Shown: positions 17,853-58,817 of the stretch, piece after piece | Numbering within the stretch: position 1 is the stretch's first letter | How the letters are laid out: each line of letters begins with the position of its first letter | Assembly (NCBI RefSeq): GCF_009695915.1 | Contig: NZ_VUMZ01000003.1 | Location: 62,001 to 126,000, forward strand | Length of the DNA: 64,000 nucleotides | Source of the DNA: Hornefia butyriciproducens | Lineage (GTDB): Bacteria > Bacillota > Clostridia > Peptostreptococcales > Anaerovoracaceae | Direction: 5' to 3' | Made by a program: the position numbers and the translations under genes | The notes under the pieces: generated by a model | Database searches by the model: none | Seen by the model: only the letters and a program-made list of their open reading frames with translations | Told to the model about the DNA's origin: nothing

Positions 17853-17915
17853 AGAGGCCGCTGCCCCGACATCTGATACGCCGATCGTTCAGACGCCGGA
17901 CAGCGGTCTCTTTTT
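17853..17915 (+). terminator. probable terminator behind thrS
   Basis: AGAGGCCGCTG (17853-17863) pairs with CAGCGGTCTCT (17901-17911), followed by a T-run. The 37-nt loop is unusually long and may fold further. A smaller hairpin without T-run lies at 17796-17824. The remaining spacer up to 18058 is purine-rich (GCGGGAAA-like units) and shows no gene. Confidence 0.55.
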
Positions 17916-18058
17916 GCGGGGAGCGGGAAAACCGGAAAATCAGGAGAAGCGGGAAGCGGGGAAAGTGCAAAGCCGGGAAACGAAGGAATAGGGGGAATCG
18001 TGGAACGCAAATGCCGGATCGTACCGGTACATCCCGGTATACAGCCATGCCGGGAAAC

Positions 18059-18124
18059 TTGACATTTGGCGCGTTTAAGCATATACTTGTATACATGCAT
18101 AGTGAAACAGTTTAACGTGTTAAA
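18059..18124 (+). promoter_or_regulatory. promoter and candidate operators of the citrate synthase operon
   Basis: TTGACA at 18059-18064, 17-base spacer, TATACT at 18082-18087. Two symmetric elements sit at the start site: TGTATACA (18088-18095, perfect palindrome) and TTTAAC-GT-GTTAAA (18111-18124). Their location suits repression by the GntR protein encoded inside the operon. Confidence 0.6.
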
Positions 18125-18141
18125 GGGGGAGGCATTTCAAT

Positions 18142-19512
18142 ATGTTGGAGATATCCAGAAAAACCAATCTGCTGGAGCAGGCCAGTTACAAATATTCCCT
18201 GCAGGATGTAAAGGAGCCCAATCTCTACCGTGATATGTACAATTATGAGGAGGCTCCGAAAATCGCGTTCAACCAGCGGCGCGTGCCGATGAACATGCCG
18301 GAGGATATCTGGATCACAGATACATCGTTCCGCGACGGTCAGCAGGCCATGGCGCCCTACACCGTCAAGCAGATCGTGGATCTTTTCAAACTGATGTCCC
18401 GGCTGGGCGGACCCTATGGGCTGATTCGCCAGTCGGAGTTCTTTATCTACTCGGAAAAGGACCGTCAGGCGGTGCAGGAGTGTATGGATCTCGGCCTGAA
18501 GTTTCCGGAGATCACCACATGGATCCGTGCCAACAAAAAAGACTTCAAGCTTGTGCGTGACCTGGGAATCAAGGAGACCGGCATCCTGGTTTCCTGCAGC
18601 GACTACCACATTTTCAAGAAGATGAACATGACCAGAAAGCAGGCAGTGGAATACTATCTGGAAACTATACGTTCCGCATTCGACGCCGGCGTGGTTCCCC
18701 GGTGCCACCTAGAGGATATCACCAGAGCGGACTTTTACGGGTTCGTTGTTCCTTTCGTTAACGAGATCATGAAACTTTCGGAGGAGGCGGGAGTTCCGGT
18801 GAAAATCCGCGCCTGCGACACAATGGGATACGGTGTGCCGTATACCGGAGCCGCGCTGCCCCGGAGCGTTTCCGGAATCATTTACGGACTGCAGCACTAC
18901 TCCGGCGTGCCCAGCGAAATGCTGGAGTGGCACGGTCACAACGACTTTTATCATGCGGTATCAAACGCTTCCACTGCCTGGCTCTACGGCTGCTGCGCGG
19001 TAAACTGTTCACTTCTCGGCATCGGAGAGCGGACAGGAAACATTCCTCTGGAGGCGATGGTATTTGAATATGCCGGGCTCCGGGGTTCTCTGGACGGGAT
19101 GGACACAACGGCGATTACAGATATCGGCAAATACTTCGAGGAGGAAATCGGTTACGAAATTCCTCCGAGGACACCCTTTGTCGGAGAAGACTTCAATGTC
19201 ACCAAGGCGGGAATCCACGCTGACGGACTGCTGAAGGATGAGGAGGTCTATAATATCTTCAATACGGAGAAACTGCTGAAGAGGAAACCGGGAGTGACGG
19301 TGAGCAAGACGAGCGGACTTGCCGGAATCGCATACTGGATCAACGATCATTACAATCTGACGGGAGAGAATGAGATCCGGAAGGAAGATCCGATCGTGGC
19401 CGAACTGAAGGAATGGGTCGACAGGCAGTATGATGAGGGCAGAACAACAAATATATCTAATCGTGAGCTTCGCGAGAAACTGAAGGAGATGAAACAAAAT
19501 GATCGAATATAA
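18142..19512 (+). CDS. Re-citrate synthase (HMGL-like)
   Basis: Condenses acetyl-CoA with oxaloacetate to citrate with Re-face stereochemistry, the enzyme several Clostridia use instead of ordinary citrate synthase. The 456-residue protein has the homocitrate/isopropylmalate synthase barrel: WITDTSFRDGQQAM (metal and substrate Asp/Arg), CHLEDITRADFYGF, ACDTMGYGVPY, HGHNDFYHAVSN and LGIGERTGNIPLEAM. Length and the N-terminal 40-residue extension fit the Re-citrate synthase group (about 450 residues) better than isopropylmalate synthase. Aconitase and isocitrate dehydrogenase follow in the same operon, which strongly supports this call. Homocitrate synthase is the alternative. Confidence 0.85.
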   Translation: MLEISRKTNLLEQASYKYSLQDVKEPNLYRDMYNYEEAPKIAFNQRRVPMNMPEDIWITDTSFRDGQQAMAPYTVKQIVDLFKLMSRLGGPYGLIRQSEFFIYSEKDRQAVQECMDLGLKFPEITTWIRANKKDFKLVRDLGIKETGILVSCSDYHIFKKMNMTRKQAVEYYLETIRSAFDAGVVPRCHLEDITRADFYGFVVPFVNEIMKLSEEAGVPVKIRACDTMGYGVPYTGAALPRSVSGIIYGLQHYSGVPSEMLEWHGHNDFYHAVSNASTAWLYGCCAVNCSLLGIGERTGNIPLEAMVFEYAGLRGSLDGMDTTAITDIGKYFEEEIGYEIPPRTPFVGEDFNVTKAGIHADGLLKDEEVYNIFNTEKLLKRKPGVTVSKTSGLAGIAYWINDHYNLTGENEIRKEDPIVAELKEWVDRQYDEGRTTNISNRELREKLKEMKQNDRI

Positions 19513-37801: not shown

Positions 37802-38233
37802 TCACCGGTCTGAAATCGGACAGACGGTGTAACGCAGTTCTTCCCTGAAATAACGGACGCACTCCTCGATGGCCACTGTGACATCTGCGCGCGGTCCGGT
37901 AATAATCAGGGCTCCGCTGAACCGGTCCATAAAACTGAGGTCGATTTCCCCCATCTTGGTGGAGATGTCCGCGGCAATGACCACCGTTTCCGGCGGGGTC
38001 ATATGAAGAATTCCGATTGAATTTCCCCGTGGGTCGTTTCCCTCATGAAATCCGATGTCGAGTCCCAGGTTGTGGTAGACTGCGGGGTCTGAGATCCCGA
38101 TGATATGAGCAAGTGTGATTTCCCTGGCGGGAACGGAGGAATGCGTGACCCGGGCCTGTCCGTTTCTGGAATGTGAACGGATGTAACGGATAAGTCTTTC
38201 CCGGTCTGTGTTTTTTCCGATGTATTCCTGCAT
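37802..38233 (-). CDS. EutS/PduU-like BMC shell protein, satellite copy 2
   Basis: A 143-residue circularly permuted BMC-domain protein. The C-terminal 100 residues carry the EutS pattern: REITLAHIIGISDPAVY, IGILHMTPPETVVIAADISTK, DLSFMDRFSGALIITGPRADV, ending VRYFREELRYTVCPI. The N-terminal 40 residues (QEYIGKNTDRERLIRYIRS) are an extra basic segment not seen in the other two EutS-like proteins here. Hexamers of this type form facets, often with a beta-barrel over the pore. Seventeen bases separate it from the preceding gene. Confidence 0.85.
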   Translation of the reverse strand: MQEYIGKNTDRERLIRYIRSHSRNGQARVTHSSVPAREITLAHIIGISDPAVYHNLGLDIGFHEGNDPRGNSIGILHMTPPETVVIAADISTKMGEIDLSFMDRFSGALIITGPRADVTVAIEECVRYFREELRYTVCPISDR

Positions 38234-38249
38234 GGCGGATCACCTCGCT

Positions 38250-38636
38250 TCAGCGCTTTGTGATGGGGCAGCAGACATAGCCGAGAGTTTCACGAAAATA
38301 TTCGACGATTTCCGTGATCGCCGTCGTAACCTCTGCGATTTCTCCGGTGATGATCAGCGTTCCGCTGAAACGGTCAGCAAAGCCGAGGTAGACGTTTCCG
38401 CTCTTGACGGCAATGTCGGAGGCGATTACCGCAGACTCCGGCGGCGTCATATTCATGATGCCGATGGCAGAAGTGCGATAATCGATTTCCGGGTTCAGTC
38501 CCAATTTCTGATATACGATAGGCAGCGGGCCGCCGATAATATGAGCAAGGGTGATTTCCTTTCCGGCTACCAGTTCCTGCACGATGCGGAGCTGTTCCGG
38601 GGAATCCTTTGTGTTTTGATTAAACTGGTCGTTCAT
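38250..38636 (-). CDS. EutS/PduU-like BMC shell protein, satellite copy 1
   Basis: A 128-residue permuted BMC protein: QELVAGKEITLAHIIGG, SAIGIMNMTPPESAVIASDI, GFADRFSGTLIITGEIAEV and EYFRETLGYVCCPITKR. Start ATG at 38636 follows GGGGGGATT. It is the first gene of the satellite set (this gene, a second EutS-like gene, a EutP-like GTPase), 160 bases from the divergent TPR operon. Sequence is clearly related to the EutS-like protein at 49882 of the main operon but not identical. Confidence 0.87.
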   Translation of the reverse strand: MNDQFNQNTKDSPEQLRIVQELVAGKEITLAHIIGGPLPIVYQKLGLNPEIDYRTSAIGIMNMTPPESAVIASDIAVKSGNVYLGFADRFSGTLIITGEIAEVTTAITEIVEYFRETLGYVCCPITKR

Positions 38637-38682
38637 GGTAAAATCCCCCCGTTTTGCAATATCATTTGTTATAATCTGATTT

Positions 38683-38750
38683 AGGATAACGCGAAAACAC
38701 GGTTTTGTCAATAATTGCGGATTGAATTAAACCGCGTTATGCGATAAAAT
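38683..38750. promoter_or_regulatory. divergent promoters between the shell satellite and the TPR operon
   Basis: Minus strand: TTGACA (plus 38706-38711), 17-base spacer, TATCCT (plus 38683-38688). Plus strand: TTGAAT (38722-38727), 17-base spacer, TAAAAT (38745-38750). The two -35 boxes are only ten bases apart, so one regulator could control both directions. Confidence 0.6.
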
Positions 38751-44085: not shown

Positions 44086-44388
44086 ATGAGCAGATATTAC
44101 GGCGAACAGGCAATCGGACTTGTCGAAACCATCGGCATGGTTCCTGCGCTGGATGCCTGTGACAAGATGCTGAAGGCTGCGGATGTGGAACTGATTTCCT
44201 ATGAAAATATCGGATCCACGCTGGTTACGATTATTGTCAAGGGCGATGTTGCGGCATGTAAAGCTTCCGTAGAGGCGGGCGCCAGAGCGGCGGCGGCGAT
44301 CGGAACGCTGACGGCGCAGAATGTAATGCCGCGGCCGATTCCGGATATCGGCGATATCGTATCTTGCCACGATGTCGATTGTTATTGA
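44086..44388 (+). CDS. BMC-H shell protein
   Basis: A 100-residue hexamer-forming shell protein of the PduA/EutM type: AIGLVETIGMVPALDACDKMLKAADVEL, a strand pair ISYENIGSTLVTIIVKGDVAACKAS and VMPRPIP before a short acidic C-terminus ending DVDCY. Core identifiers are VETIGMVPALDAC and GDVAACKASVEAG. BMC-H hexamers tile the facets and their central pores pass small metabolites. ATG at 44086 follows AAAGGAGCG. First gene of the cut operon. Confidence 0.93.
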   Translation: MSRYYGEQAIGLVETIGMVPALDACDKMLKAADVELISYENIGSTLVTIIVKGDVAACKASVEAGARAAAAIGTLTAQNVMPRPIPDIGDIVSCHDVDCY

Positions 44389-44417
44389 TTTCGATACAGT
44401 ACAGGAAGGATTTAAAC

Positions 44418-44732
44418 ATGAGTAATAAAGGTCAGGGACAGGCATTGGGTATGATTGAGACCTTCGGACTGGTATTCATGCTTCAGGCGGCGGATGCGAT
44501 GGTGAAAGCCGCAGAGGTGGAAGTCGTCGGTTATGAAAATACCGCGTCCGGCTACATCTCAATTCTTACGAGAGGCGACGTTGCGGCCTGCAAGTCGGCG
44601 GTCGAAGCCGGAATCAAGGCCGTTGAAGAGATGGGCGCGGAGGTGTACAGTTCCTGCGTTATCGCGACGCCCCATCCGGGACTGGAAAAGATCATTGAGA
44701 GATATACACTGGATAAGCTGTTGCCGTATTAG
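44418..44732 (+). CDS. BMC-H shell protein
   Basis: A 104-residue BMC-H protein: ALGMIETFGLVFMLQAADAM, VEVVGYENTASGYISILTRGD and VYSSCVIATPHPGLEKII, with a short C-terminal extension (ERYTLDKLLPY). ATG at 44418 follows AGGAAGGA; an earlier in-frame start overlaps the preceding gene and adds non-family residues. The loop around NTASGYIS differs from the other three BMC-H proteins, so its pore lining should differ. Confidence 0.92.
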   Translation: MSNKGQGQALGMIETFGLVFMLQAADAMVKAAEVEVVGYENTASGYISILTRGDVAACKSAVEAGIKAVEEMGAEVYSSCVIATPHPGLEKIIERYTLDKLLPY

Positions 44733-44755
44733 AGATGTGACTGGAGGGAGTGACG

Positions 44756-46252
44756 ATGATGAATATCATAGACAATGATTTGCTCTCCATCCAGGAAGCG
44801 CGTATTCTGGCGGAAAACGCGGGCGGCGTGCAGGCGGAACTTGCTTTGTTCACGCAGGAACAGCTTGACCGGATCGTGGAAGCCATGGCGGACGCAGTCG
44901 AGCCCCACGTCGAGGAACTCGCAGTGCTGTCCAGCGAAGAGACTGATTACGGCAACTGGAAAGACAAGTATGCGAAGGATCGCTTTGTCTGCGGCTATCT
45001 GCGTGAGCAGCTGCGGGGAATGCGGTGTGTCGGCGTGATCGGCGAGAACCCCGAGAAGGGGCTGATGGACGTCGGTGTTCCCGTGGGCGTGATCGTGGCG
45101 CTCTGTCCGGCAACGAGCCCGGTATCGACGACGATTTACAAAGCGCTGATTGCAGTGAAGGCCGGAAATCCGATCATCTTTTCGCCGCATCCCAGAGCGA
45201 GAGACACAATCGGAAGAGCGCTGGATATCATGATTGAGGCCGCGGAGGCCAGCGGGCTTCCGGAGGGAGCACTCAGTTATCTGCATACCGTGACCAAAAG
45301 CGGTACTGTGGAGCTGATGCATCATCCTTCCACATCGCTTCTCCTGATTACTGGTGTACCGGGAATGCTCGATGAAGCGTACGAAGCGAGAAAACCGCTG
45401 ATTTACGGCGGAGCCGGAAACGGTCCGGCATTTATCGAAAGAACCGCAGACGTGCGTCAGGCGGTTCGGGACATCATCAGCAGCAAGACCTTTGATAACG
45501 GCCTTCTGCCGGCGGCGGAGCAGTCCGTCGTAGTCGATGCTCCCGTCGCGGAACAGGTCAGAGCAGAGTTCATGGCGAATCATGCGTACTTCATGACTGA
45601 ATGTGAATCCGAGCAGCTGGCGAAGCTGATCTTCAATTCTGACGGCTCGGCCAACACCACGCTGGTGGGAGTTACGGCGGAGACGCTGGCGAAGAGAGCC
45701 GGGTTCAGCATTCCTCCGGAAACGGTGCTCCTGGTTTCGGAGCAGAAGTATGCGTCGCAGGAGAATCCATATGCGAGGGAGAAACTGGCGCCGGTAGTGG
45801 CGTTCTTCATCGAAGATGACTGGGAACACGCCTGTGAGAAGTGCATCGAGCTGCTGCTGAAGGACAGACGCGGACACACGCTGGTCATCCATTCAACGGA
45901 CGGCGATGTGATCCGGCAGTTCATGCTTCGCAAACCGGTCGGAAGGATACTTGTCAATACGCCTGCAACCTTCGGGAGCATGGGAGCATCCACTAATATG
46001 TTTCCGGCGATGACTCTCGGCAGCGGCTCGTCCGGACTGGGGATCACCTCAGACAATGTGTCTCCGAGAAATCTGATTTATGTCAGGAAGGTGGGATTCG
46101 GCGTCCGGAGCGTGGAGACGGCGGATCGTGAATTCTTCGGAAGAGACCGGCTCCCGGATAAACCGAGAATAAAGACGCAGGATATTGAAACTGCGGAACA
46201 GGTCAGGGTAATACAGGGACTTCTCAGGGAGGCTGTGGAACAGAAGAACTGA
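44756..46252 (+). CDS. aldehyde dehydrogenase-like protein lacking the catalytic cysteine
   Basis: A 498-residue member of the EutE/PduP CoA-acylating aldehyde dehydrogenase family. NAD and structural segments are kept (CPATSPVSTTIYKALIAVK, GGAGNGPAFIERTADV, GSMGASTNMFPAMTLGSGS). At the active site, however, it reads FDNGLLPAAEQS where the family has FDxGTxCASEQ: Pro252 replaces the nucleophilic cysteine. The second paralogue (56123) has Cys251 at the same point. The reading frame is intact, so it is not a decaying gene. It probably has a structural, regulatory or binding role in the compartment. ATG 44756 follows GGAGGG. Confidence 0.88.
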   Translation: MMNIIDNDLLSIQEARILAENAGGVQAELALFTQEQLDRIVEAMADAVEPHVEELAVLSSEETDYGNWKDKYAKDRFVCGYLREQLRGMRCVGVIGENPEKGLMDVGVPVGVIVALCPATSPVSTTIYKALIAVKAGNPIIFSPHPRARDTIGRALDIMIEAAEASGLPEGALSYLHTVTKSGTVELMHHPSTSLLLITGVPGMLDEAYEARKPLIYGGAGNGPAFIERTADVRQAVRDIISSKTFDNGLLPAAEQSVVVDAPVAEQVRAEFMANHAYFMTECESEQLAKLIFNSDGSANTTLVGVTAETLAKRAGFSIPPETVLLVSEQKYASQENPYAREKLAPVVAFFIEDDWEHACEKCIELLLKDRRGHTLVIHSTDGDVIRQFMLRKPVGRILVNTPATFGSMGASTNMFPAMTLGSGSSGLGITSDNVSPRNLIYVRKVGFGVRSVETADREFFGRDRLPDKPRIKTQDIETAEQVRVIQGLLREAVEQKN

Positions 46253-46311
46253 GGAGAGTAAATAACATATAAGAACAAGGTGGAAACCTGAAACGAAAGA
46301 GAGGTAACCCA

Positions 46312-48882
46312 TTGGACATTCGTGATTTTTCAAACAAACTGGCGGAAGCTACGAAAGACATGTCGGCGGAAGAGCGCAACGCACTGAAGTCCATGTTTGA
46401 GAATGTTACTAAAGAAATGGAACGTAAGGAAGCGGCAGCTCCGGCGCAGGCGGCAGCGCAGCCAGCCGCGGCAGCTCCGGCTCCGTCTTCTCCGGACTGG
46501 CAGCCGGACGGACCTACGCCAAGAATCAAAGCGCTGAAGGATAACTACAGAAAGCAGGTTCCGTCGATTTCCACATACCGCGCGAGAGCGGTCACAGAAA
46601 TCACAAAGGCGAATCCCGGAATGCCGAAGATCATTCTGAGAGCCAAGGCGTTCCGCCACTGCTGCGAGACTGCTCCACTGATCATTCAGGATAATGAGCT
46701 GATCGTCGGAAATCCGACGGGCGGTCCCCGTGTCGGCGCGTTTGCTCCGGACATCGCATGGAAATGGATGAGAGACGAGCTGGATACCATCGGAACCAGA
46801 GACCAGGATCCGTTCTACATTTCTGATGAAGATAAGAAATACATGAAAGAGGAACTGTTCCCCTTCTGGGAAGGAAAATCCGTTGACGAGTACTGTGAAG
46901 ACCAGTACAAGGAATGCGGCGGCTGGGAACTTTCCGGCGAATCCTTTGTTTCAGACTGTTCCTATCACGCGCAGAACGGAGGCGGCGATTCCAACCCCGG
47001 ATACGACGTGATCCTGATGAAGAAGGGCATGAAGGACATCCAGCAGGAGGCGAGAGAGCATCTGAAGGAACTGGATTACGCCAACCCGACGGATATTGAT
47101 AAAATCTACTTCTATAAAGGCGTGATCGACACGACTGAAGGCGTCATGATCTACGCGAAAAGACTGTCTGATTATGCTGCGCAGCTGGCGGGACAGTGCA
47201 CCGATCCGACGAGGAAAGCAGAACTCCTGAAGATCTCAGAGATCAACGCCAAGGTTCCCGCTAACAAGCCGGAAACCTTCTGGGAAGCTATTCAGGCAGT
47301 CTGGACCGTCGAGTCCCTGCTTCCGGTAGAGGAAAATCAGACCGGCATGTCCATCGGACGTGTGGACCAGTATATGTATCCGTTCTACAAGGCGGATATG
47401 GAGTCCGGCAGAATGAATCAGTTTCAGGCGTTTGAACTGGCGAGCTGCATGCTGATCAAGATGTCCGAGATGATGTGGGTAACCAGTGAAGGCGCATCCA
47501 AGTTCTTCGCCGGATATCAGCCCTTTGTTAACATGTGCGTAGGCGGCGTTACCCGTGAGGGTGTCGACGCGACCAACGATCTGACCTACCTGCTGATGGA
47601 CGCGGTGAGATTCACGAAGATTTATCAGCCGTCGCTGGCCTGCCGGATTCACAACAAATCGCCTCAGAAGTACATGGAGAAGATAGTAGACGTCGTAAGA
47701 GCGGGAATGGGATTCCCGGCCTGCCATTTCGACGATACTCATATTAAGATGATGCTTGCCAAGGGAGTGTCGATTGAGGACGCGAGAGATTACTGCCTGA
47801 TGGGCTGTGTAGAACCGCAGAAGTCCGGAAGACTGTATCAGTGGACCTCCACCTCCTATACCCAGTGGCCGATCTGCATCGAGCTGGTGCTGAATCACGG
47901 TGTACCTCTCTGGTACGGTAAGCAGGTCACACCTGATCTTGGTCCTCTCACGCAGTATAAGACTTATGAGGACTTTGACAAAGCGGTCAAGGCGCAGATC
48001 CAGTATATCACCAAGTGGACTGCCGTTATGACGGTAATCTCCCAGAGAGTACAGAGAGATCTGGCGCCGAAGCCGCTGATGTCCATCATGTTCGAAGGCT
48101 GCATGGAGAAGGGCAGAGGCGTTGAGGCCGGCGGCGCGATGTACAATTACGGACCGGGCGTCGTCTGGAGCGGACTCGCGACCTATGCGGATTCAATGGC
48201 GGCGATTAAGAAACTGGTATTCGATGACAAAAAATATACGCTGGAGCAGTTGAACGAGGGCCTGAAGGCAGATTTCGTCGGCTACGAGCAGATGAGAGCG
48301 GACTGCCTGGCAGCGCCGAAATACGGAAATGATGACGATTATGCAGATCTCATCTGCACGGATCTGATCAACTTCACCGAGATGGAACACCGCAAGTACA
48401 AGACTCTGTTCGCGCAGATGTCCCACGGAACGCTGTCCATCTCCAACAATACGCCGTTCGGACAGATGACCGGCGCCTCCGCTAACGGACGGAAAGCGTG
48501 GACGCCGCTGTCGGATGGAATTTCTCCGACACAGGGCGCAGACAAGAAGGGACCGACGGCCATCATCAAGTCCGTCTCGAAGATGTCTAACGACAACATG
48601 AACATCGGCCTGGTGCACAACTTCAAGCTGATGCCGGGAATCCTGGATACACCGGAGGGCGAACAGGGTCTGATCACTCTGCTGAGAACCGCCTGCCTGT
48701 TCGGGAACGGCGAGATGCAGTTCAACTACGTGAACAATGAAGACATGATTGCTGCACAGAAGGATCCGGACAGCTACAGAGATCTGGTTGTTCGTGTCGC
48801 CGGTTACAGTGCATTCTTCACGGAACTGTGCAAGGACGTGCAGGATGAGATTATCAGCAGAACCATGCTGACACATTTTTAA
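46312..48882 (+). CDS. cutC: choline trimethylamine-lyase, glycyl radical enzyme
   Basis: Splits choline into trimethylamine and acetaldehyde. The 856-residue protein has the residues known from Desulfovibrio CutC, all shifted by ten: Tyr218 and Asp226 (YHAQNGGGD), Phe399 and Phe405 (FAGYQPF), catalytic Cys499 and Glu501 ([10 protein letters not shown]), Thr512 and Tyr516 (WTSTSY), and radical Gly831 in [10 protein letters not shown]. That set marks choline lyase rather than glycerol or propanediol dehydratase. Residues 1-40 form an amphipathic helix ([19 protein letters not shown]) and an Ala/Pro linker follows, a cargo-targeting extension. Start is TTG at 46312 after AGAGAGG. The activase gene follows. 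Confidence 0.97.
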
Positions 48883-48913
48883 ACAACAGTAATATAAGCA
48901 GGAGTTCAGCATA

Positions 48914-49858
48914 ATGAGCGGCAACGGAGAAGCGCTGGAGCGTAAAGCTACTATATTCAACATACAAAAATATAATATGCACGACGGTCCGGGGGTAAGG
49001 ACGCTGGTATTTTTCAAAGGCTGTCCGCTTCGCTGTAAATGGTGTGCCAATCCGGAGGGACTGGAACGAAAGTTCCAGGTCATGTTCAAGAAAGACGCCT
49101 GTGTAAGCTGCGGGGCATGCGTTCCGGTGTGCCCCAAAGGCATTCACAGCATTACGGCGCAGGGACATACTGTGAATCGGGAAATCGACTGCATCGGATG
49201 CCGGAAGTGCATGGATGCCTGTTTGTATAACGCGCTGGACATTGCCGGAGAGGTTCAGACCATTTCGAAAATCATGGATGTGGTACTGGAGGATCGGATG
49301 TTCTACGATATGTCCGGCGGAGGTATGACCCTGGGCGGCGGCGAATGCACGGCGCAGCCTGAGGCATGTCTCAGTCTCCTGCAGACAGCAAAACAGAACG
49401 GCGTTAATACTGCGATCGAGACCTGCGGCTATACGCCCCACGACAAACTGATGAAAATCGCGGAATATGTGGATCTGTTCCTGTTTGACATCAAGCATTT
49501 CAATTCGGACAGGCACAGTGAACTGACAGGCGTCAGAAACGAAATCATCCTGAAAAATCTTACGGAGCTTCTGAATACAAAGCATAATGTAAAGATCAGG
49601 ATGCCGATGCTGAAGGGTGTGAACGACAGTCGTGAAGAGATCGAGAATACAATGAAATTCCTGCTTCCTTTCAAGGATATGAAGAATTTCAAGGGAATCG
49701 ATCTGTTGCCGTATCACAAGATGGGAGTAAACAAGTACGGACAGCTTGATATGGAATACCAGATCAAGGAGGATCCGAGTCTTTCACAGGAGGACCTGGA
49801 TCGCATTGAAGGTTATATCAAACCGTTCGATCTGCCGGTTTCAGTGATCCGGCACTAG
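48914..49858 (+). CDS. cutD: CutC-activating enzyme, radical SAM
   Basis: Installs the glycyl radical on CutC. The 314-residue protein has the GRE-activase pattern: [16 protein letters not shown], the radical SAM cluster motif CPLRCKWC (CxxxCxxC), and an inserted ferredoxin-like domain with two sets, [14 protein letters not shown] and [11 protein letters not shown]. The SAM-binding stretch [15 protein letters not shown] follows, then [16 protein letters not shown]. The two extra clusters are normal for CutD-type activases. It lies 31 bases after cutC and is followed by a EutS-like shell gene. Confidence 0.96.
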
Positions 49859-49881
49859 ACAGTTATTTTTCTGAGGTAGCT

Positions 49882-50241
49882 ATGGGTGTAATCAAGGAAA
49901 CAAATGATGAACTGCAGCGTGTCATAGAGGAATCGGTTCCCGGCAAACAGGTGACCATTGCTCATGTCATCGCCGCGCCCATGACGGACATCTACGAACG
50001 TCTTGGGATTGACGAGGCGGGAGCCATCGGCATCCTGACTTTGTCTCCCTATGAGACGGCGATCATTGCGGCTGATATCGCGACGAAAGCTGCGGATGTC
50101 CAGATCGGCTTCCTCGACAGATTTACAGGCTCTGTCGTCATTTCCGGAGACGTGCAGAGCGTGGAGACGGCGCTGCAGGCGGTAACGGACACCTTGTGCA
50201 ATCTGCTGGGATTCAGTACAGTGGAGGTTACAAAGACCTGA
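49882..50241 (+). CDS. EutS/PduU-like BMC shell protein
   Basis: A 119-residue permuted BMC-domain protein: [59 protein letters not shown] and [15 protein letters not shown]. Third EutS-like protein of the window; the other two are in the satellite at 37802-38636. The stop codon overlaps the ATG of the EutP-like GTPase gene, the same pairing of EutS-like and EutP-like genes as in the satellite. Confidence 0.92.
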
Positions 50242-50717
50242 TGCGCAAAATAATGGTGATCGGTACCGGAAAGTCCGGAAAGACGGCATTGGTGGATGCC
50301 ATCAACGGAGAAAAACGACCGCCGAGAAAAACGCAGGATATGATATTCGGAAAATACACCATAGACGTTCCGGGTGCATACCTGGAAAATCCCTGGATGT
50401 ACAAGCATCTCATATCCGCGGCACAGAACAATGCGGGACATATTCTGATTCTTGTGGATCAGAGCAATCCCGTCGACAAATATTCTCATGGATTCGCGAA
50501 GGTTTTCCGCTACCCGGTTACGGGAGTGATTACCAAATGTGATCTTCATCCGGAGAATGAGGAGACATGCCGGAAACAGCTGAAATACATCGGCGTTGAG
50601 GAGCCTTATTTCCGGGTCAGTGTGAAAACGGGCGAAGGCATAGAGGAACTGAAGGAATACGTGCTGAAAGACATCATTGAAAGGTCGAAGAAACATGAAA
50701 TTCATAACGGAAGATGA
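50241..50717 (+). CDS. EutP/PduV-like GTPase
   Basis: A 158-residue Ras-like protein: P-loop IMVIGTGKSGKTALVDAI, a short switch region, DVPGAYLENPWMYKHL and GVITKCDLHPENEE (TKxD). EutP/PduV proteins are thought to help position or assemble microcompartments. ATG at 50241 overlaps the stop of the shell gene; the longer frame upstream lacks family similarity. Its last 23 bases overlap the EutT-like gene. Confidence 0.88.
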   Translation: MRKIMVIGTGKSGKTALVDAINGEKRPPRKTQDMIFGKYTIDVPGAYLENPWMYKHLISAAQNNAGHILILVDQSNPVDKYSHGFAKVFRYPVTGVITKCDLHPENEETCRKQLKYIGVEEPYFRVSVKTGEGIEELKEYVLKDIIERSKKHEIHNGR

Positions 50718-51354
50718 TCTGAGAGACATCTACAGAAAAGATCCTTTTACAAGCTATGAAATCCAGCCGGGCGCCAGACTGACTCCGGGCGCCAGACAGT
50801 TCCTGCAGGACAGACAGATCAATGTATTCGCAGACGGAACAGCGATGCACGTCGGCGATGGAGTCGTGGCAGGCAGAGAGCCGGGTGTCGGCACTCCGGA
50901 TCTTCTGAAGGACAGAAGGCTGGGAGCGTGTCTGAAATCCGCAGAGGCCCTGTTTCTTCTGACCGCATCGGAGCTGATGGAACTCGACGTGGTTCTGGCG
51001 CAGGAGGTTCTGCAGCTTGGCAGAAAGTTCGAGGAAATCAAGTACATGGCGAAGGAGGGGAAGACCTTCGAGCCGGTTCCGTTCAGAACATGCGGAGGAA
51101 TGACGGCGGAGACATTCTGCTGTGACATAGGCGACTGCTTTGATATCACAGAATTCCATATGCAGACAGAGAAGGGGCGGCAGATTCTGCTGCTGCACCG
51201 GCTGCGCTGCGAGCTTTATGAGGTGCAGGTCACCGTTATGGAAGTCCGTTGTACCAACAAGGCAGTGACAGAAAGACTGAATCAGATCATCAACTGCATT
51301 TCGCAGCTGATATGCAAGGCCTTTGGAGGGGGAGAATGTCTGAGAAACGAGTAA
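50695..51354 (+). CDS. EutT-like protein without the cysteine metal site
   Basis: A 219-residue homologue of the corrinoid adenosyltransferase EutT: KFITEDDLRDIYRKDP and ARLTPGARQFLQDRQINVF at the N-terminus, and a C-terminal helical part with KGRQILLLHRLRCELYEVQV. Salmonella EutT has a metal-binding H-x11-CCxxC motif between these; here the region (VAGREPGVGTPDLLKDRRLG) has no cysteine, although a CCDIGDC group appears later near residue 145. CutC needs no cobalamin, so classical EutT activity is not expected. It may have a structural or other nucleotide-binding role. Confidence 0.7.
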   Translation: MKFITEDDLRDIYRKDPFTSYEIQPGARLTPGARQFLQDRQINVFADGTAMHVGDGVVAGREPGVGTPDLLKDRRLGACLKSAEALFLLTASELMELDVVLAQEVLQLGRKFEEIKYMAKEGKTFEPVPFRTCGGMTAETFCCDIGDCFDITEFHMQTEKGRQILLLHRLRCELYEVQVTVMEVRCTNKAVTERLNQIINCISQLICKAFGGGECLRNE

Positions 51355-52190
51355 ACTTTGAGTATTGCGATCAACTGGTGGAGAAGTTCGAGCAGGTCTG
51401 CGAAAAGCCGGAACTTCACAAATCGTCTGTGTATTATACCGGCGTCGACCTCGGAACCGCCTGCGTGGTTGTGGCGGTGCTGGATGAGAACTACGAGCCG
51501 GTGGCAGGATGTTACAAATATGCCGACGTCGTCAGAGACGGCATGGTCGTGGACTACATCGGAGCTGTTCAGATCGTCCGTGAAATGAAGCAGGAATTGG
51601 AGGAGAAACTGGATACAGAACTGGTTTATGCGGCAGCCGCAATCCCGCCGGGAACGGAAACTGTCGATTCCGGTGCCGTGGAGAACGTCGTGCGGGGAGC
51701 AGGATTCACTCTGAGCAACCTGCTGGATGAACCTACAGCTGCGAACGAGGTGCTGAAGATCCAGAACGGAGCGGTTGTCGACATCGGCGGCGGAACGACC
51801 GGAATCTCTATTTTCAAGGACGGAAAGGTTGTTTATATCGCCGACGAACCTACAGGGGGAACACACTTTTCACTGGTTTTGTCCGGCGCTTACAAAATGC
51901 CCTTCGAGGATGCAGAGGTGTTCAAACGGGATCCGGACAATCACAAAGAAATCTTTCCGGTGCTCAAGCCGGTGATCGAAAAGGTCGCGGCCATCATCAA
52001 CGAGCATATCGAGGGACATCAGGTTGAGGAGATCTCCCTTGTTGGAGGAACCTGCTGTCTGACCGGGATCGAAGGTACCATCGAGAAGAAAACAGGAATC
52101 TACACGCATAAACCCAGGAATCCGATGTTCGTCACGCCGCTGGGAATCGCACTCAGCTGCAGGCAGGAGGAATACGAAGGAAAATGGTAG
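51336..52190 (+). CDS. eutJ: EutJ-like chaperone (ASKHA fold)
   Basis: A 284-residue Hsp70-like ATPase fold: YYTGVDLGTACVVVAVLD, YAAAAIPPGTETVDSGA, LLDEPTAANEVLKIQNGAVVD with the phosphate loop VVDIGGGTTGISIF, and the adenosine stretch EISLVGGTCCLTGIEG. EutJ proteins are encoded in many microcompartment operons and are presumed to help fold or load enzymes. ATG at 51336 follows GGAGGGGGAG and overlaps the end of the EutT-like gene. Confidence 0.92.
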   Translation: MSEKRVNFEYCDQLVEKFEQVCEKPELHKSSVYYTGVDLGTACVVVAVLDENYEPVAGCYKYADVVRDGMVVDYIGAVQIVREMKQELEEKLDTELVYAAAAIPPGTETVDSGAVENVVRGAGFTLSNLLDEPTAANEVLKIQNGAVVDIGGGTTGISIFKDGKVVYIADEPTGGTHFSLVLSGAYKMPFEDAEVFKRDPDNHKEIFPVLKPVIEKVAAIINEHIEGHQVEEISLVGGTCCLTGIEGTIEKKTGIYTHKPRNPMFVTPLGIALSCRQEEYEGKW

Positions 52191-52208
52191 ACACGGGAAG
52201 AGGCAGAG

Positions 52209-52520
52209 ATGGAATTCAGAATCATTAAGACCCCCTCGCAGGGGACGATCGATATCCTGATGAGACGTAAGGGAACTCCCTCCTCTCAGAGGCCGGAAAG
52301 CATCGATGCCGTAGGTCTTGTGCAGGGCAGGCTGATTGAAATGGTGGTTGCCGCCGATATCGCAGAAAAAACCGTAGGCGTTACGGTGGAGGATATCAGA
52401 GGCAGCTGTCCGCAGAACATGATTATGCTGGCAATATTCGGAGACACAGCGTCTGTGGAATCAGCGCTCCGCGCGATTCAGGAAGACGCAGAGGGGAGTA
52501 AGTACAGTGCTGACGGCTAA
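52209..52520 (+). CDS. small BMC-domain-like protein
   Basis: A 103-residue protein with weak similarity to a BMC domain: IDAVGLVQGRLIEMVVAADIA, VGVTVEDIRGSCPQNMIML and FGDTASVESALRAI. The final strand-helix (AIFGDTASVESALRAIQED) is the clearest match. It lacks the usual glycine-rich pore loop. Its position between EutJ and the pentamer protein is typical of accessory shell genes. It may be a divergent shell subunit or an assembly factor. Confidence 0.6.
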   Translation: MEFRIIKTPSQGTIDILMRRKGTPSSQRPESIDAVGLVQGRLIEMVVAADIAEKTVGVTVEDIRGSCPQNMIMLAIFGDTASVESALRAIQEDAEGSKYSADG

Positions 52521-52770
52521 GCTGATTGATAATATCTGGGCGACCAGAAAGACGCCGCTTCTGAACGGATACAAGTTGATGCTTGTGGAAGTGATCGGCG
52601 GAGGGAAGAATGATGGACAGCGCCTTGTGGCGGTGGATACCATCAGTTCCGGAATCGGAGACAGAGTACTGGTAACGCTGGGATCGTCCGCCAGAAGAAT
52701 GGTGGAGGATGACAGCATACCGGTCGATGCCGCGATTGTCGGTATCATAGATGAAGACTGTGAATTTTAG
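52507..52770 (+). CDS. eutN: EutN/CcmL-type pentameric vertex protein
   Basis: An 87-residue BMV protein that caps the shell vertices as a pentamer: LIDNIWATRKTPLLNGYKLMLVEV, QRLVAVDTISSGIGDRVLV, LGSSARRMVEDDSIPVDAAIVGIID. The family motif is VDAAIVGIID at the C-terminus and GxGxxVL in the middle. Start is GTG at 52507 after GAGGGGAG, overlapping the previous gene by 14 bases. Only one pentamer gene is present in the window. Confidence 0.93.
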   Translation: MLTAKLIDNIWATRKTPLLNGYKLMLVEVIGGGKNDGQRLVAVDTISSGIGDRVLVTLGSSARRMVEDDSIPVDAAIVGIIDEDCEF

Positions 52771-52788
52771 GAGTCTGGGAGGTATAGT

Positions 52789-54117
52789 ATGGCGCTTCTG
52801 GATCAAATCAAAAGTGCGGGCGTGATCGGAGCCGGCGGAGCCGGATTTCCAACTCATGCTAAATTGACATCAAATGCAGATTACATTCTGATGAACGGAG
52901 CGGAGTGCGAGCCGCTGCTCCGCGTGGATCAGCAGCTGATGGCCATGTACCCGGAGGAAATCATCAGGGGATTTGAGATGGCCGGAAGGATGGTCGGCGC
53001 GAAACAGGCGATCATCGGAATCAAAGGAAAGCATGGCGACGTAATTCAGATTCTCAGAGACACGATTGACAGAATCGGTTTCACTGATTACGTTTCTGTA
53101 GGGATTCTGCCGGATATCTATCCTGCGGGAGACGAGCAGGTTCTGGTCTATCAGCTGACCGGAAGAGTGGTTCCGGAGGCGGGGATCCCTATCATGTGCG
53201 GCTGTGTCGTCATGAATTCTGAGACGGCGCTGAACGTTTACAACGCATCAAAGGGACTTCCGGTCACGGAGACCTACGTCACGGTGGCGGGCGACATTCC
53301 CAACCGGCTGACACTGAAGGTCCCTGTGGGAACACCGGTGCTGGATGTGCTGAAGCTGTCGGGAATCACGGATTTCTCTGAATACAAAGTTATCGACGGC
53401 GGACCGATGATGGGACCGCTGCTGGCAGATATCCATGGTTTTGTCGTCAAGAAGAACAAAGGATATGTCATCCTGAGGAAGGATCATCCGCTTATCAGAA
53501 AGAAGGAAGTCACCGATCCGCAGGCGCGGAAAATCAATCACGCCACCTGTGAGCAGTGTCGTATGTGCACGGATATGTGCCCCAGAGCGCTGATCGGACA
53601 CGATACGGCACCGCATAAAGCGATGCGGTTCATGCTCTACGGCGGAGACGACATGCAGGGAAAGACCATCGGACAGCTCTGCTGCCAGTGTAATCTTTGT
53701 GAATACTTCGCATGTCCGATAGGACTCCATCCCAAGATGGCCAACATGGCCCTGAAGGATGAGACGATGAAGGCGGGCGTCCGGTTCCAGAGAGACGAGA
53801 ACCGGGAATACAAGCCGAACAAGAACAGAGACTGGCGTCTGGTTCCGAGCCATCGCCTGATCGCCAGGATCGGGCTCACCGGGTTTGACGCTCCCGCGCC
53901 GATGTCTGACATCCGGTTGGAGCCTCAGGAAGTGCATATCATGCTGTCTCAGCATGTAGGCGCACCTGCGCAGCCGATTGTCCGCGCGGGCGATAGAGTA
54001 ACCGTCGGTCAGATGATCGGCAGAATTCCGGAGGATGCTTTAGGCGCGGCTGTACACGCCAGCATCGGTGGAGAAGTAACCGAAGTCACAGACAAGTACA
54101 TCGCGATTAGGAGGTAG
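52789..54117 (+). CDS. pduS: PduS-like Fe-S flavoprotein (RnfC family)
   Basis: A 442-residue redox protein: Gly-rich NADH/FMN domain at the start (GVIGAGGAGFPTHAKL, MNGAECEPLLRVD), SLBB-type central domain, then two [4Fe-4S] motifs, CEQCRMCTDMCPRAL and CCQCNLCEYFACPIG, and a barrel-like C-terminus. PduS oxidises NADH and can pass electrons through the shell to PduT. In this operon it may be the main outlet for NADH, because no alcohol dehydrogenase gene is present. The pduT-like gene follows after four bases. Confidence 0.93.
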   Translation: MALLDQIKSAGVIGAGGAGFPTHAKLTSNADYILMNGAECEPLLRVDQQLMAMYPEEIIRGFEMAGRMVGAKQAIIGIKGKHGDVIQILRDTIDRIGFTDYVSVGILPDIYPAGDEQVLVYQLTGRVVPEAGIPIMCGCVVMNSETALNVYNASKGLPVTETYVTVAGDIPNRLTLKVPVGTPVLDVLKLSGITDFSEYKVIDGGPMMGPLLADIHGFVVKKNKGYVILRKDHPLIRKKEVTDPQARKINHATCEQCRMCTDMCPRALIGHDTAPHKAMRFMLYGGDDMQGKTIGQLCCQCNLCEYFACPIGLHPKMANMALKDETMKAGVRFQRDENREYKPNKNRDWRLVPSHRLIARIGLTGFDAPAPMSDIRLEPQEVHIMLSQHVGAPAQPIVRAGDRVTVGQMIGRIPEDALGAAVHASIGGEVTEVTDKYIAIRR

Positions 54118-54121
54118 CAGG

Positions 54122-54670
54122 ATGCAGAGAGCGATAGGAATGGTCGAATTTACGAGCATTGCGCGCGGCATATATGTAGCGGATCAGATGGTCAAGATCT
54201 CAGAGGTGGAGATTGTCACGTCGGTCAGCACCTGCCCGGGCAAGTACATCACTATTGTGACCGGCGATGTTGCGGCGGTTCAGTCCTCCGTAGCATTAGG
54301 AGAACAGCTGGCCGAAGAATTCTTTGTGGATTCGATTGTCGTGCCGAATGTAACAGAATCCGTATTCCCGGCGATTACCGGCGCAACGATGCCGGAGAAG
54401 CTGGATGCCGTCGGAATTATGGAATCCTTCTCACTGGCGACGATGATCATCGCGGCAGATGAGATTCTCAAGTCAGCGGAGCTGGAGCCCATTGAACTGA
54501 GACTCGGCAATGGATTGGGCGGCAAATCATACTTCACCTTTACCGGAGAGGTTGCGGCAGTTCAGACCGGTGTCGATACCGGTATGGCAATTGCGAAGGA
54601 AAAGGGACTTCTGGTCAACGCGGAAGTTATTCCATCACCTTCCGATCGATTGATAGAATCACTACTATAA
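54122..54670 (+). CDS. pduT: PduT-like two-domain BMC-T shell protein
   Basis: A 182-residue trimer-forming shell protein with two BMC domains (1-90, AIGMVEFTSIARGIYVADQM, and 95-182, AVGIMESFSLATMIIAADEI). Cys38 in VSTCPGKYIT is at the position where Salmonella PduT binds a central [4Fe-4S] cluster. It would carry electrons across the shell from PduS. The two genes are adjacent, which supports this pairing. Confidence 0.93.
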   Translation: MQRAIGMVEFTSIARGIYVADQMVKISEVEIVTSVSTCPGKYITIVTGDVAAVQSSVALGEQLAEEFFVDSIVVPNVTESVFPAITGATMPEKLDAVGIMESFSLATMIIAADEILKSAELEPIELRLGNGLGGKSYFTFTGEVAAVQTGVDTGMAIAKEKGLLVNAEVIPSPSDRLIESLL

Positions 54671-54688
54671 TGAAAGGAGTGAAACTAA

Positions 54689-55372
54689 ATGAAAACGTTG
54701 ATAACTGAGAAGTGTGTCAGAGAATTCATCGAGAAGGGACAGAAGAGCATCTGCATTGACGATAACACTCTGATCACACCGGCCGCTCGGGACATGATAC
54801 GCGCGAACGGAATCGAGCTTACGGAAGGCTGCGCGCCGGCCGCCGGCTGCTGTACACCGGCTGCGCCCGCGGCACAGACGACATCCGCTGCACAGCCCGC
54901 GTGTGAAGGAGACAGCCTGAGCAGCGACATGATCTATCAGGTGCTGAAGAAACTGGCGGATCAGGGACTGCTGGACGGATTCGTCAACAGCCTGAATGCG
55001 GCGTCCGGAAATGCTCCCTACACCGCGGAATGTGAGAACGGTCTGAAACTGGTCCGGGGACAGGGCATCAAAATGGAGGTTCTGGATACCGGAGTGCCTG
55101 CTGATTACGGCAAAGTCATGTACCAGGAGATCGTCGGGGCGGATGACGGCGCTTCAGTGGCATCCGGCTTCATGACGGTGGATCACTGCACATTCGACTA
55201 TCCGGTGGAAATCCAGGAAACGCATTATGTTGTCGAGGGACAGATGACGATCACAATCGACGGAAAAGAGCATACGGCTTATCCAGGCGATACGTTCTTC
55301 ATCCAGAAGGGACAGCAGGTCCGCTTCAGCAGCGGCGACACATTTGCCAAGACGTTCTACGCAACGTATTAA
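54689..55372 (+). CDS. eutQ: EutQ-like cupin protein
   Basis: A 227-residue protein with an N-terminal 45-residue module (ITEKCVREFIEKGQKSICI, LITPAARDMIRANGIEL), an Ala/Cys/Pro linker (APAAGCCTPAAPAAQTT), and a C-terminal cupin (HCTFDYPVEIQETHYVVEG, YPGDTFFIQKGQQVRF). EutQ proteins have been reported to work as acetate kinases, which would turn PduL-made acetyl phosphate into acetate plus ATP. The N-terminal module resembles that of the EutT-like protein at 50695. AAAGGAGTG precedes ATG 54689. Confidence 0.9.
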   Translation: MKTLITEKCVREFIEKGQKSICIDDNTLITPAARDMIRANGIELTEGCAPAAGCCTPAAPAAQTTSAAQPACEGDSLSSDMIYQVLKKLADQGLLDGFVNSLNAASGNAPYTAECENGLKLVRGQGIKMEVLDTGVPADYGKVMYQEIVGADDGASVASGFMTVDHCTFDYPVEIQETHYVVEGQMTITIDGKEHTAYPGDTFFIQKGQQVRFSSGDTFAKTFYATY

Positions 55373-55419
55373 TAGATGAAAGCAGTTAACGACGAGTAAT
55401 CTGAAAAGGAGCAATTACT

Positions 55420-56088
55420 ATGAAAGCAATTGGTATGATTGAAACAAAGGGTCTGGTTCCCGCAATCGAAAGTGCCGATGCGATGCTGAAGGCAGCGGAG
55501 GTTACGCTGATCGAAAGAAGATTCGTAAAGGGCGGACTTGTGACGATCGTGATTGCCGGTGATGTAGCGGCCTGCAAGGCTTCCGTCGATGCGGCGGCGT
55601 CAGCGGTTCAGAGAATGGGCGGTGAGATTGTTTCAACTCACGTCATTCCGAGACCGCATTCGACACTCAGCGGTCTGATCGTGAACAGGATTCCCGGGGA
55701 TGATGAAGAAATCTCCGATCCTGACGATGAGGAGTCTCACATAAGTAGCCGGAACAAAGAAAATGAAGGCGGAGGAACTCCGTCGGAGACGGTAGAAGAG
55801 GCAGAGGAACACGCGGAGAATACAACGGAAGAACCCGCGGAAATCGAAGAGACCGGGGAGAGCAGAACGGTCGAAATCCCTGAAAATCTCCATAAGGCAG
55901 AGCTCGACGAGATTGTTGAGGCCAAAGGCGCCGACGCAGTCCGGGAGATCCTTTCCGGGAAGAAGGTAGTTGAGCTGAGGACACTGGCTCGTGAATATAA
56001 CGGACAGTTCGGCATCTCAGGCAGAGAAATTACCCACTCGAACAAATCAGCGCTCATTGATCAGTTCGAGGAATACTACAAGAAATAA
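55420..56088 (+). CDS. BMC-H shell protein with SAP/HeH-like C-terminal domain
   Basis: A 222-residue protein. Residues 1-90 are a PduA-like BMC domain ([50 protein letters not shown]). A long acidic, probably unstructured linker follows (about 95-155, rich in Glu and Asp). The last 65 residues (KAELDEIVEAKGADAVREIL, VVELRTLAREYNG, THSNKSALIDQFEEYYKK) fold as a helix-extended-helix of the SAP/HeH type, which often binds nucleic acid. EutK and PduK are other shell proteins with extra C-terminal domains. Tethering to the nucleoid or to other cargo is possible. Confidence 0.85.
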   Translation: MKAIGMIETKGLVPAIESADAMLKAAEVTLIERRFVKGGLVTIVIAGDVAACKASVDAAASAVQRMGGEIVSTHVIPRPHSTLSGLIVNRIPGDDEEISDPDDEESHISSRNKENEGGGTPSETVEEAEEHAENTTEEPAEIEETGESRTVEIPENLHKAELDEIVEAKGADAVREILSGKKVVELRTLAREYNGQFGISGREITHSNKSALIDQFEEYYKK

Positions 56089-56122
56089 CAAGTTTTAGCA
56101 ATTTAAAAGGAGGTGCTGCATA

Positions 56123-57799
56123 ATGGAGAATATGGATTTTGATCTGCGCTCCGTACAGGAGGCCAGAGATCTTGCCAGAGCCGGTCAGATCGCGACAGAG
56201 CAGATCGCTACATACACAGATGAGCAAATCGATAAGATCCTGCAGAACATGGTACGCGTAGCGGAAGAGCACGCATATGAGCTGGCGCAGATGGCTGTTG
56301 AGGAAACGGGTTTCGGAAAGGTTCCGGACAAGACCTACAAGAATCATTTCGCCTCAACCGTTCTCTACAATTATATTAAGGGAATGAAGACATCCGGCGT
56401 TCTCCGGGAGGATCCGGTCAACAAAACAATCGAGATCGCAGAGCCGGTCGGGCTCCTGCTGGGAATTGTTCCCTCCACGAATCCGACATCGACCGCGATT
56501 TTCAAATCAATGATCGCGGTCAAGGCGAGAAATGCGATTGTTTTCGCTCCGCATCCATCTGCAAAGAAATGTACGCTCAGAGCAGCTACATTAATGAAGG
56601 AAGCGGCAGAAGCGGCGGGTGCACCGGCAAACACCATCGGATGCGTTTCGATGCCCAGCATGCCCGCAACTAACGAACTGATGCATCATCCGGACGTCAA
56701 GATGATCATTGCCACCGGCGGTCCGGGAATGGTCAAGGCTGCGTACAGCTCCGGTAAACCGGCTCTTGGCGTCGGCGCAGGGAACTCCCCGGCGTACATC
56801 GAGAGAACAGCGAATGTTGCAGAGGCTGTGAAGAACATTATTGCGAGCAAGAGCTTTGACTACGGCACAATCTGTGCGTCTGAGCAGTCAGTCATCGCAG
56901 AGGAATGCAACAAAGATCAGGTCATCGAGGAATTCCGGAAGCAGGGCGGATATTTCATGAGCCCCGAGGAAACTGAGAAGGTCTGCAAGATTCTGTTCCG
57001 GCCGGGAACGACTTCCATGAGCGCCAAGTTTGTCGGAAGATCTCCGCTGGTCATCGCGAACGCGGCGGGATTCAGTGTCCCTGACAACACAAAGGTACTG
57101 ATCGGACCGATGGGCGGCGTCGGAAAAGAGTATCCGCTGTCCTTCGAGAAGTTGACCTCCGTGCTGGCGTTCTACACAGTGAAGGACTGGCACGAAGCAT
57201 GTGAACTCAGCAAAAAACTCCTGCAGAACGGAATCGGCCATACGATGAGCATCCATACGCAGGACAGAAATATGGTTATGGAATTCTCCGCGAAACCGGC
57301 GTCCAGAATTCTGGTCAACACCGGCGGAAGCATGGGTGGCGTCGGTGCGAGCACCGGTTTGGCTCCATCCTTCACACTGGGATGCGGAACCTGGGGCGGA
57401 AGTTCTGTTTCGGAGAATGTATCGCCGCTGCACCTGATCAATGTCAAACGAGTCGCTTACGGCCTCGTGGACTGTGCGAACCTGGCGGCGAACGATCCGA
57501 CGTTCAATCATCCTGAGCTGAACGGCGGATATGCTCCGGCGCAGGTTGCTCCGCAGTGCACACCGGCTCCCGCAGCACCTGTACAGAGTTATATCGGATA
57601 CAGCCCCACCTGCGGAACCTGTGCTCCGTACAGCCCGGTAAATATCACAGGAGCACCGTCTCCTTCCGAGATCCAGAACGGAGCGGCGTCTGCGGCTCCC
57701 GCACCGCAGGCAGCGCCGGCGGCAGGGGATCAGGGAATCAACACTGCCCAGCTGAATGACATGATCAATTCCATGGTGAAGGCTCTGAAAGGAGAATGA
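56123..57799 (+). CDS. CoA-acylating acetaldehyde dehydrogenase with C-terminal targeting peptide
   Basis: Oxidises acetaldehyde to acetyl-CoA with NAD. The 558-residue enzyme has [55 protein letters not shown] and the catalytic Cys251 in [12 protein letters not shown]. After residue 460 comes an Ala/Pro/Gln-rich linker ([15 protein letters not shown]) and an amphipathic tail [17 protein letters not shown], the typical encapsulation peptide of glycyl-radical compartments. It is the only catalytically competent aldehyde dehydrogenase of the operon. GGAGG precedes ATG 56123. Confidence 0.94.
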
Positions 57800-57802
57800 T
57801 AA

Positions 57803-58471
57803 ATGGAGAATTATGAACAGCTGATCAGACAGCTTGTCGATGCGGCCATGGCCAGCGCAGGAAAAACTGCAGCCGGCTGCGGGGCAGAAACCTGTGCAGA
57901 CGGGTCGGATATTCCGGTAGGCGTATCCAATCGGCATCTGCATTTGTCCCAGCAGGATCTGAATGTACTGTTCGGCTCAGGATATGAACTGACTGCCATC
58001 AAGGATCTTGGCCAGCCGGGACAGTTCGCCTGTAAGGAGACGCTGACCGTCTGCGGTCCGAAAGGAGCGATTGAAAAGGTTCGTGTTCTCGGTCCGGTCA
58101 GAAGCAGGACACAGGTTGAAATCCTGGCCGGAGACGGCTTCAGGCTCGGCGTCAAAGCACCGGTTCGTCAGTCGGGTGATCTGACCGGTACGCCGGGTGT
58201 CACGCTGGTCGGCCCCAAAGGGAGCGTAGTGCTGACAGAGGGAACGATTGTCGCTCAGCGTCACATCCATATGACTCCTGCGGAGGCGGAGCGATATGGT
58301 GTTAAAGACGGCGATGTGGTCTCCATCGATTTTGATACGGAACGCGGCGGTGTTATGAGGAATGTGCTTATCAGAGCAACCGACACCAGCGCACTGGAAT
58401 GCCACGTAGATACGGAGGAAGCGAACGCTTTCGGCGTCAGCTCCAAATCGCATTTCAGGATCATAAAATAG
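57803..58471 (+). CDS. pduL: PduL-type phosphotransacylase
   Basis: Converts acetyl-CoA and phosphate to acetyl phosphate, recycling CoA inside the shell. The 222-residue protein has a helical N-terminal targeting peptide (NYEQLIRQLVDAAMASAG), then two PduL domains: VGVSNRHLHLSQQDLNVLF and KDLGQPGQFACKETLTV, GPVRSRTQVEIL, and AQRHIHMTPAEAERYGVKDG. The histidines of RHLHLS and QRHIHM bind the zinc ions. Starts three bases after the aldehyde dehydrogenase stop, matching its use of that product. Confidence 0.95.
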   Translation: MENYEQLIRQLVDAAMASAGKTAAGCGAETCADGSDIPVGVSNRHLHLSQQDLNVLFGSGYELTAIKDLGQPGQFACKETLTVCGPKGAIEKVRVLGPVRSRTQVEILAGDGFRLGVKAPVRQSGDLTGTPGVTLVGPKGSVVLTEGTIVAQRHIHMTPAEAERYGVKDGDVVSIDFDTERGGVMRNVLIRATDTSALECHVDTEEANAFGVSSKSHFRIIK

Positions 58472-58529
58472 TTGAAAAATGTTAAATAACAATATAAAAT
58501 CTAATTAGAAATATTAGGAGGATAAGAAA

Positions 58530-58817
58530 ATGGCTAAGTATGATGCATTGGGAATGATCGAAACTAAGGGACTGGTTGGATCCATCGAGGCTGCAGATGC
58601 TATGGTAAAAGCGGCGAATGTATATCTGATCGGCAGAGAGTTCGTAGGCGGAGGACTGGTAACCGTCATGGTCAGAGGCGATGTCGGTGCGGTCAAGGCT
58701 GCTACAGACGCTGGTGCCGCTGCCGCGCAGCGTGTCGGCGAACTGCTGTCCGTACACGTGATTCCTCGTCCGCACGTTGAGGTTGAGGGAATCCTGCCGT
58801 CGATTGAAGGAAAATAA
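58530..58817 (+). CDS. BMC-H shell protein (PduA/PduJ-like)
   Basis: A 95-residue canonical hexamer subunit: [46 protein letters not shown] and [16 protein letters not shown] (cores VETKGL-type and [10 protein letters not shown]). It is the most standard shell protein here and probably the major one. An AT-rich 58-base spacer with TTGAAA and TATAAA (15 bases apart) precedes it and may supply extra transcripts. Last gene of the cut operon. Confidence 0.94.

Follow-up and report, generated by a model that had tools for sequence, protein, structure and literature searches.

Gut anaerobes cleave choline to trimethylamine. The GRM1 (choline) microcompartment loci that carry two aldehyde dehydrogenases (AldDHs) all have one in which the catalytic cysteine is replaced by serine or proline (Axen et al. 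2014, PMC4207490), and both GRM1A and GRM1B have been marked with a "putatively inactive second copy" (Sutter et al. 2021, PMC8217296). A dead second AldDH in GRM1 loci is an already published feature (2014). GRM2 loci, as in E. coli, Proteus and Klebsiella, have a single AldDH, CutF, which joins full-length CutC to form large assemblies, cross-linking and enlarging the core (Kalnins et al. 2020, PMC6971018). Recruitment of CutF needs an extension of ~350 aa in GRM2 CutC (PMC6971018), which type-I CutC lacks. AldDHs of this type bear a C-terminal encapsulation peptide (PMC8217296).

The gene described here fits the published account of a Cys-to-Ser or Cys-to-Pro change in the second AldDH (PMC4207490; PMC8217296), and nothing of substance sets it apart. 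We add an alanine variant, the loss of the oxyanion asparagine, a probable kinship with CutF, and two lineages from which the gene has been lost. The kinship, which may already be displayed in Figure 5 of Sutter et al. 2021 (PMC8217296), gives the protein described in 2014 a concrete and testable role.

The GRM1 locus and its two aldehyde dehydrogenases

The window, i.e. the whole stretch of 64,000 nucleotides that was analysed, contains the following genes:

44086–44388, + strand: BMC-H shell protein
44421–44732, + strand: BMC-H shell protein; the ORF is listed from a TTG at 44364, and the likely start is internal, near 44421
44756–46252, + strand: acylating AldDH of 498 aa, almost certainly catalytically dead (the "inactive second AldDH" of GRM1)
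46312–48882, + strand: cutC, choline trimethylamine-lyase, short (type I), 856 aa
48914–49858, + strand: cutD, glycyl radical activating enzyme
49882: a different BMC-H, without the GSCPQN motif
52209–52520, + strand: BMC-H with the pore motif GSCPQN, identified by this motif as GrpU, a GRM1 marker
52789–54117, + strand: PduS-like protein, from its Pfam domains
54122–54670, + strand: PduT-like BMC-T shell protein, from sequence and position
56123–57799, + strand: active-type acetylating AldDH, 558 aa, with Cys251 intact and a C-terminal tail
57803–58471, + strand: PduL phosphotransacylase

The 856-aa CutC contains PFL-like and Gly_radical domains and the motifs GCVE and RVAGY, cutD adjoins it, and shell genes lie nearby. 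The GrpU pore motif has been given as G-X-C-P-Q-N/H (PMC6325248). This is a GRM1 choline microcompartment locus, because a short CutC and its activase CutD stand beside shell genes together with PduS-like and PduT-like proteins and a BMC-H with the GrpU motif; it holds two AldDHs, one of them with Cys changed to Pro. The dead AldDH is therefore an already known feature met again. The gene order (BMC-H, BMC-H, dead AldDH, cutC, cutD) agrees with an earlier note made from the sequence, which had placed the gene between the first shell genes and cutC. The same note called the position operon-first; the gene does lie near the front of the operon, but as the third gene. We saw no iron alcohol dehydrogenase in the GRM1 operon (44086–58817), the six matches in the genome being on other contigs, and a scan for sigma-54 patterns gave matches not above chance expectation.

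The gene in the EutT position (50677–51354) has no Pfam match and is poorly conserved across loci (30–57% in most), and its dN/dS is among the highest of the operon in two of five compared pairs. Two minus-strand genes near the locus are possibly satellite shell genes: 38250–38711, with a match to the Pfam BMC domain, and 37802–38233, BMC-like by sequence.

Active-site residues and selection

Positions 44756–46252 form a single intact open frame with the active-site text FDNGLLPAAEQS, in which Pro is residue 252. The true start may be at 44759, since relatives start with MNIIDND. The Cys-to-Pro change in a full-length frame on which the earlier note was built is thus real, Pro252 standing opposite Cys251 of the second copy. 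An identical Pro codon is present in two genomes of the same genus, in which the protein is 96% (G003) and 76% (G005) identical, so codon 252 is no sequencing error. The protein shares its fold and a full-length alignment with EutE-type acetylating aldehyde dehydrogenases (TIGR02518; PDB 3k9d, 5j78), but it scores 522.5 bits against the TIGR02518 equivalog cut-off of 620.1, compared to 749.2 for the partner copy, and it lacks both the catalytic Cys and the oxyanion Asn of that family (Pro252, Ser121). The features that matter for its function are:

45116–45118, + strand: codon 121, Ser replacing the oxyanion-hole Asn (N120 of the active copy, N138 of Cphy1178)
45404–45406, + strand: codon 217, Tyr, as in 64 of 64 dead copies, against Gly in 70 of 70 active relatives
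45509–45511, + strand: codon 252, CCG (Pro), where the catalytic Cys is expected
46175–46249, + strand: C-terminal helix (residues 474–497 in the model), a likely encapsulation peptide

The catalytic position is occupied by Ser in 54 of 64 dead copies, by Pro in eight and by Ala in two. Chance is not an issue, because none of these copies has Cys, which is kept in all 70 active-type relatives compared. Every Ser is encoded by TCN, Pro by CCN and Ala by GCN, as expected from one early change of TGY to TCY followed by Ser to Pro and Ser to Ala; on the tree, Pro arose from Ser at least twice and Ala twice. A single base change would turn TCY back into Cys, yet no dead copy has regained it. In Cphy1178, N138 has an oxyanion role and H387 and E357 have base roles (PMC4762007); our equivalences to these residues are by residue spacing, not superposition. 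The oxyanion Asn (N120 of the active copy, whose numbering is used below) is Ser in 62 of the 64 dead copies; all 64 have Val or Ile in place of Gly200 of the NAD loop and the invariant Tyr in place of Gly216. This residue, Tyr217 of the dead AldDH, would lie beside the cofactor pocket and its glycine-rich motif. Most copies retain the pocket residues His374 and Glu342, the latter in 57 of 64. At 63 positions conservation reaches at least 95% in both the dead and the active group.

The loss of Cys and of the oxyanion Asn predicts the absence of dehydrogenase activity, and judged by its residues the protein is almost certainly dead as a catalyst. It is nevertheless a maintained protein under purifying selection and is not decaying. 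Pairwise dN/dS values are 0.03–0.24 in five comparisons (rough where dS is high), similar to those of its active counterpart in these operons. The dead AldDH evolves somewhat faster than cutC, it is conserved from Clostridia to Desulfobacterota, and the complete copies that were read have full-length frames. The clade-wide loss of Cys, oxyanion Asn and cofactor-loop Gly under purifying selection lends support to the pseudoenzyme that the earlier note had suspected.

The AlphaFold model of the dead AldDH has the ALDH fold, with a TM score of 0.96 and 45% identity to 3k9d, and a pLDDT of 92.6, reached with active relatives added to the input (65 with dead copies alone). The C-terminal helix is amphipathic in most dead copies, whereas in the window's own copy amphipathicity is not significant against shuffles (p 0.11). 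In C. ljungdahlii the syntenic AldDH CLJU_RS19625, matched by synteny only, is choline-induced with a log2 of 7.2, compared to 7.9 for the lyase (PMC12016505).

Distribution, gene loss and kinship with CutF

In two genome samples, 59 of 62 type-I cutC loci have a dead copy immediately before cutC: 41 of 41 among 200 genomes of one Clostridia family, and 18 of 21 among 247 genomes of the window's order. Two Desulfobacterota loci also carry it. A loss shared across choline-lyase loci is thus supported. The three exceptions (L174, L175 and L176, in genomes G629, G636 and G707) have an otherwise complete GRM1 operon from which the dead AldDH is absent without remnant, and ~30–50 bases separate the second BMC-H gene from cutC. 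In the cutC tree, where the row L180 is a second copy from a locus that does carry the dead AldDH, the three gene-less loci sit in two places within gene-carrying groups; the gene has therefore been cleanly lost twice, independently. As the operon is complete in these two lineages, the dead AldDH is not strictly essential. Their CutC, checked for compensating changes, had none that were clear or convincing. G629, G636 and G707 are natural knock-outs, comparison strains that make the role of the dead AldDH testable.

The dead copies fall in a single clade (support 100/100), which has a long stem. In mixture-model trees the sister of this clade is GRM2 CutF, with support of 100/99 when one CutF is included and 99/97 with two, and CutF is the nearest active relative of the dead AldDH. 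Eight residues that are rare elsewhere are shared by the dead clade and CutF. AU tests reject a grouping of the dead copies with the GRM1 operon partner (p 0.004), with the AldDHs of Firmicute long-cutC loci (p 1.5e-5) and with EUT-type AldDHs (p 0.006). The placement next to CutF is strong, though not final because of the long branch and because the trees contain two CutF sequences only, from E. coli and P. mirabilis. The dead AldDH and its operon partner share only ~42% identity and fall in separate clades. The word "paralogue" of the earlier note is loosely right in this light, but the AU test (p 0.004) rejects an origin by recent duplication of its partner in the operon. Kinship with AdhE has a much lower similarity behind it and is not needed. 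The genes for CutF and the dead AldDH both follow the first BMC-H genes and precede cutC; at the E. coli locus the single AldDH, with Cys intact, lies between them. Unlike the dead AldDH, CutF keeps the Cys, the Asn and the Gly motif, and it is the sole AldDH of its locus.

Possible roles of the dead AldDH

We propose that the dead AldDH, descended from a CutF-like enzyme, probably has a non-catalytic part in the CutC core, as a subunit for its assembly or cross-linking. We favour this role on the ground that GRM2 CutF, its closest active relative, cross-links the CutC core (PMC6971018). The ancestor would have been a CutF-like acetaldehyde dehydrogenase encoded at the front of a choline-lyase operon. 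Catalysis would rest with the second, phylogenetically separate AldDH of the same operon (56123–57799). In the front copy the nucleophile has gone, by a change of Cys TGY to Ser TCN followed by Ser to Pro in this lineage and at least one other, and so has the oxyanion Asn. It has kept its fold, most invariant structural residues of the family and a C-terminal helix of the kind that encapsulation peptides form; loaded into the shell, it would cross-link or assemble the CutC core without catalysis. If cross-linking is older than the split between CutF and the dead AldDH, a CutF-lineage protein freed of catalysis by a second AldDH could keep the structural job only, and we lean slightly towards such an inheritance from a CutF-like ancestor. 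The predicted fold and C-terminal helix fit a structural role; the protein is presumably encapsulated, and its oligomeric state and structural role are likewise presumed. Of the functions offered in the earlier note, scaffolding of the core is favoured by the kinship, the core-organising role itself being drawn by analogy with CutF. More tentatively, an ancestral dual role may have been split: GRM2 CutF would be both enzyme and cross-linker, while the CutF-lineage protein of GRM1 would be a dedicated core organiser and a separate AldDH would do the chemistry. If so, the two lineages without the dead AldDH would be knock-outs made by nature for this division of labour. It counts against this proposal that cross-linking by CutF depends on the N-terminal extension of GRM2 CutC. 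Type-I CutC has no such extension, so the partner surface would have to be a different one.

Other observations also argue against an assembly subunit. The gene was lost in two lineages, the window's own helix is not significantly amphipathic, and a pure scaffold does not need His374 or Glu342. These residues, together with H145 and K135 of the cofactor and active-site region, would instead suit a pseudoenzyme that buffers or senses cofactors in the lumen by binding CoA, NAD(H) or acetyl-CoA. Binding of CoA persists in the C269A mutant of Cphy1178 (PMC4762007), and loss of the Cys alone therefore does not abolish it. However, the dead copies have also changed around the cofactor, with Val or Ile for Gly200, the invariant Tyr for Gly216 next to the glycine-rich motif, Asn120 nearly always lost and Glu342 not kept throughout. 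We regard a ligand holder as unlikely, and the earlier suggestions of NADH/CoA holding and acetaldehyde binding are weakened by the changes at Asn120, Gly200 and Gly216. A regulator that forms mixed tetramers with the active AldDH, tuning its activity or its dose in the shell, is a quite improbable alternative. Acylating AldDHs are tetramers (PMC4762007), both copies keep structural residues conserved in the family, N434, G427 and R397 among them, and almost every type-I locus has both genes, but the low identity of copies from separate clades, the differences close to the oligomerisation region at several C-terminal positions that are otherwise conserved (Y442, G447) and the two lineages that lack the dead AldDH all weigh against it.

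Residual or altered catalysis, with the Ser/Pro/Ala protein running a different reaction or with Ser as a weak nucleophile, would agree with the restriction of the position to small residues and with the retained His and Glu. It is very unlikely, as Pro and Ala arose independently and cannot be nucleophiles and the oxyanion Asn is gone too. Two independent clean losses and an evolution somewhat faster than that of cutC might point to a pseudogene on its way to loss; this reading has next to no probability and is already contradicted by the observed purifying selection, with dN/dS far below 1, full-length frames in the complete copies that were read and conservation from Clostridia to Desulfobacterota.

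Other glycyl radical enzymes in the compared genomes deserve mention. The cutC at L004:11543–14227 (MAG RUG13204) encodes a rubrerythrin-type rubredoxin-like domain (PF21349, E 8e-10, above cut-off) in the N-terminal linker that connects a putative encapsulation helix to the catalytic domain, and it is the sole one with PF21349 among the cutC genes scanned. Long type II.a CutC has been described from Gammaproteobacteria only (PMC5026066); GRM2-like long CutC of ~1140–1150 aa is found here in Firmicutes, at L153:2513–5935, L177:5011–8460 and L178:3721–7169, the last interrupted by one stop. Several genomes have, near or apart from their GRM1 loci, a second glycyl radical enzyme that is ~57% identical to CutC and lacks the N-terminal peptide; such CutC-like enzymes occur at L120 near 17800–19501, at L180:7154–9538, at L181:7491–9899 and in L183.
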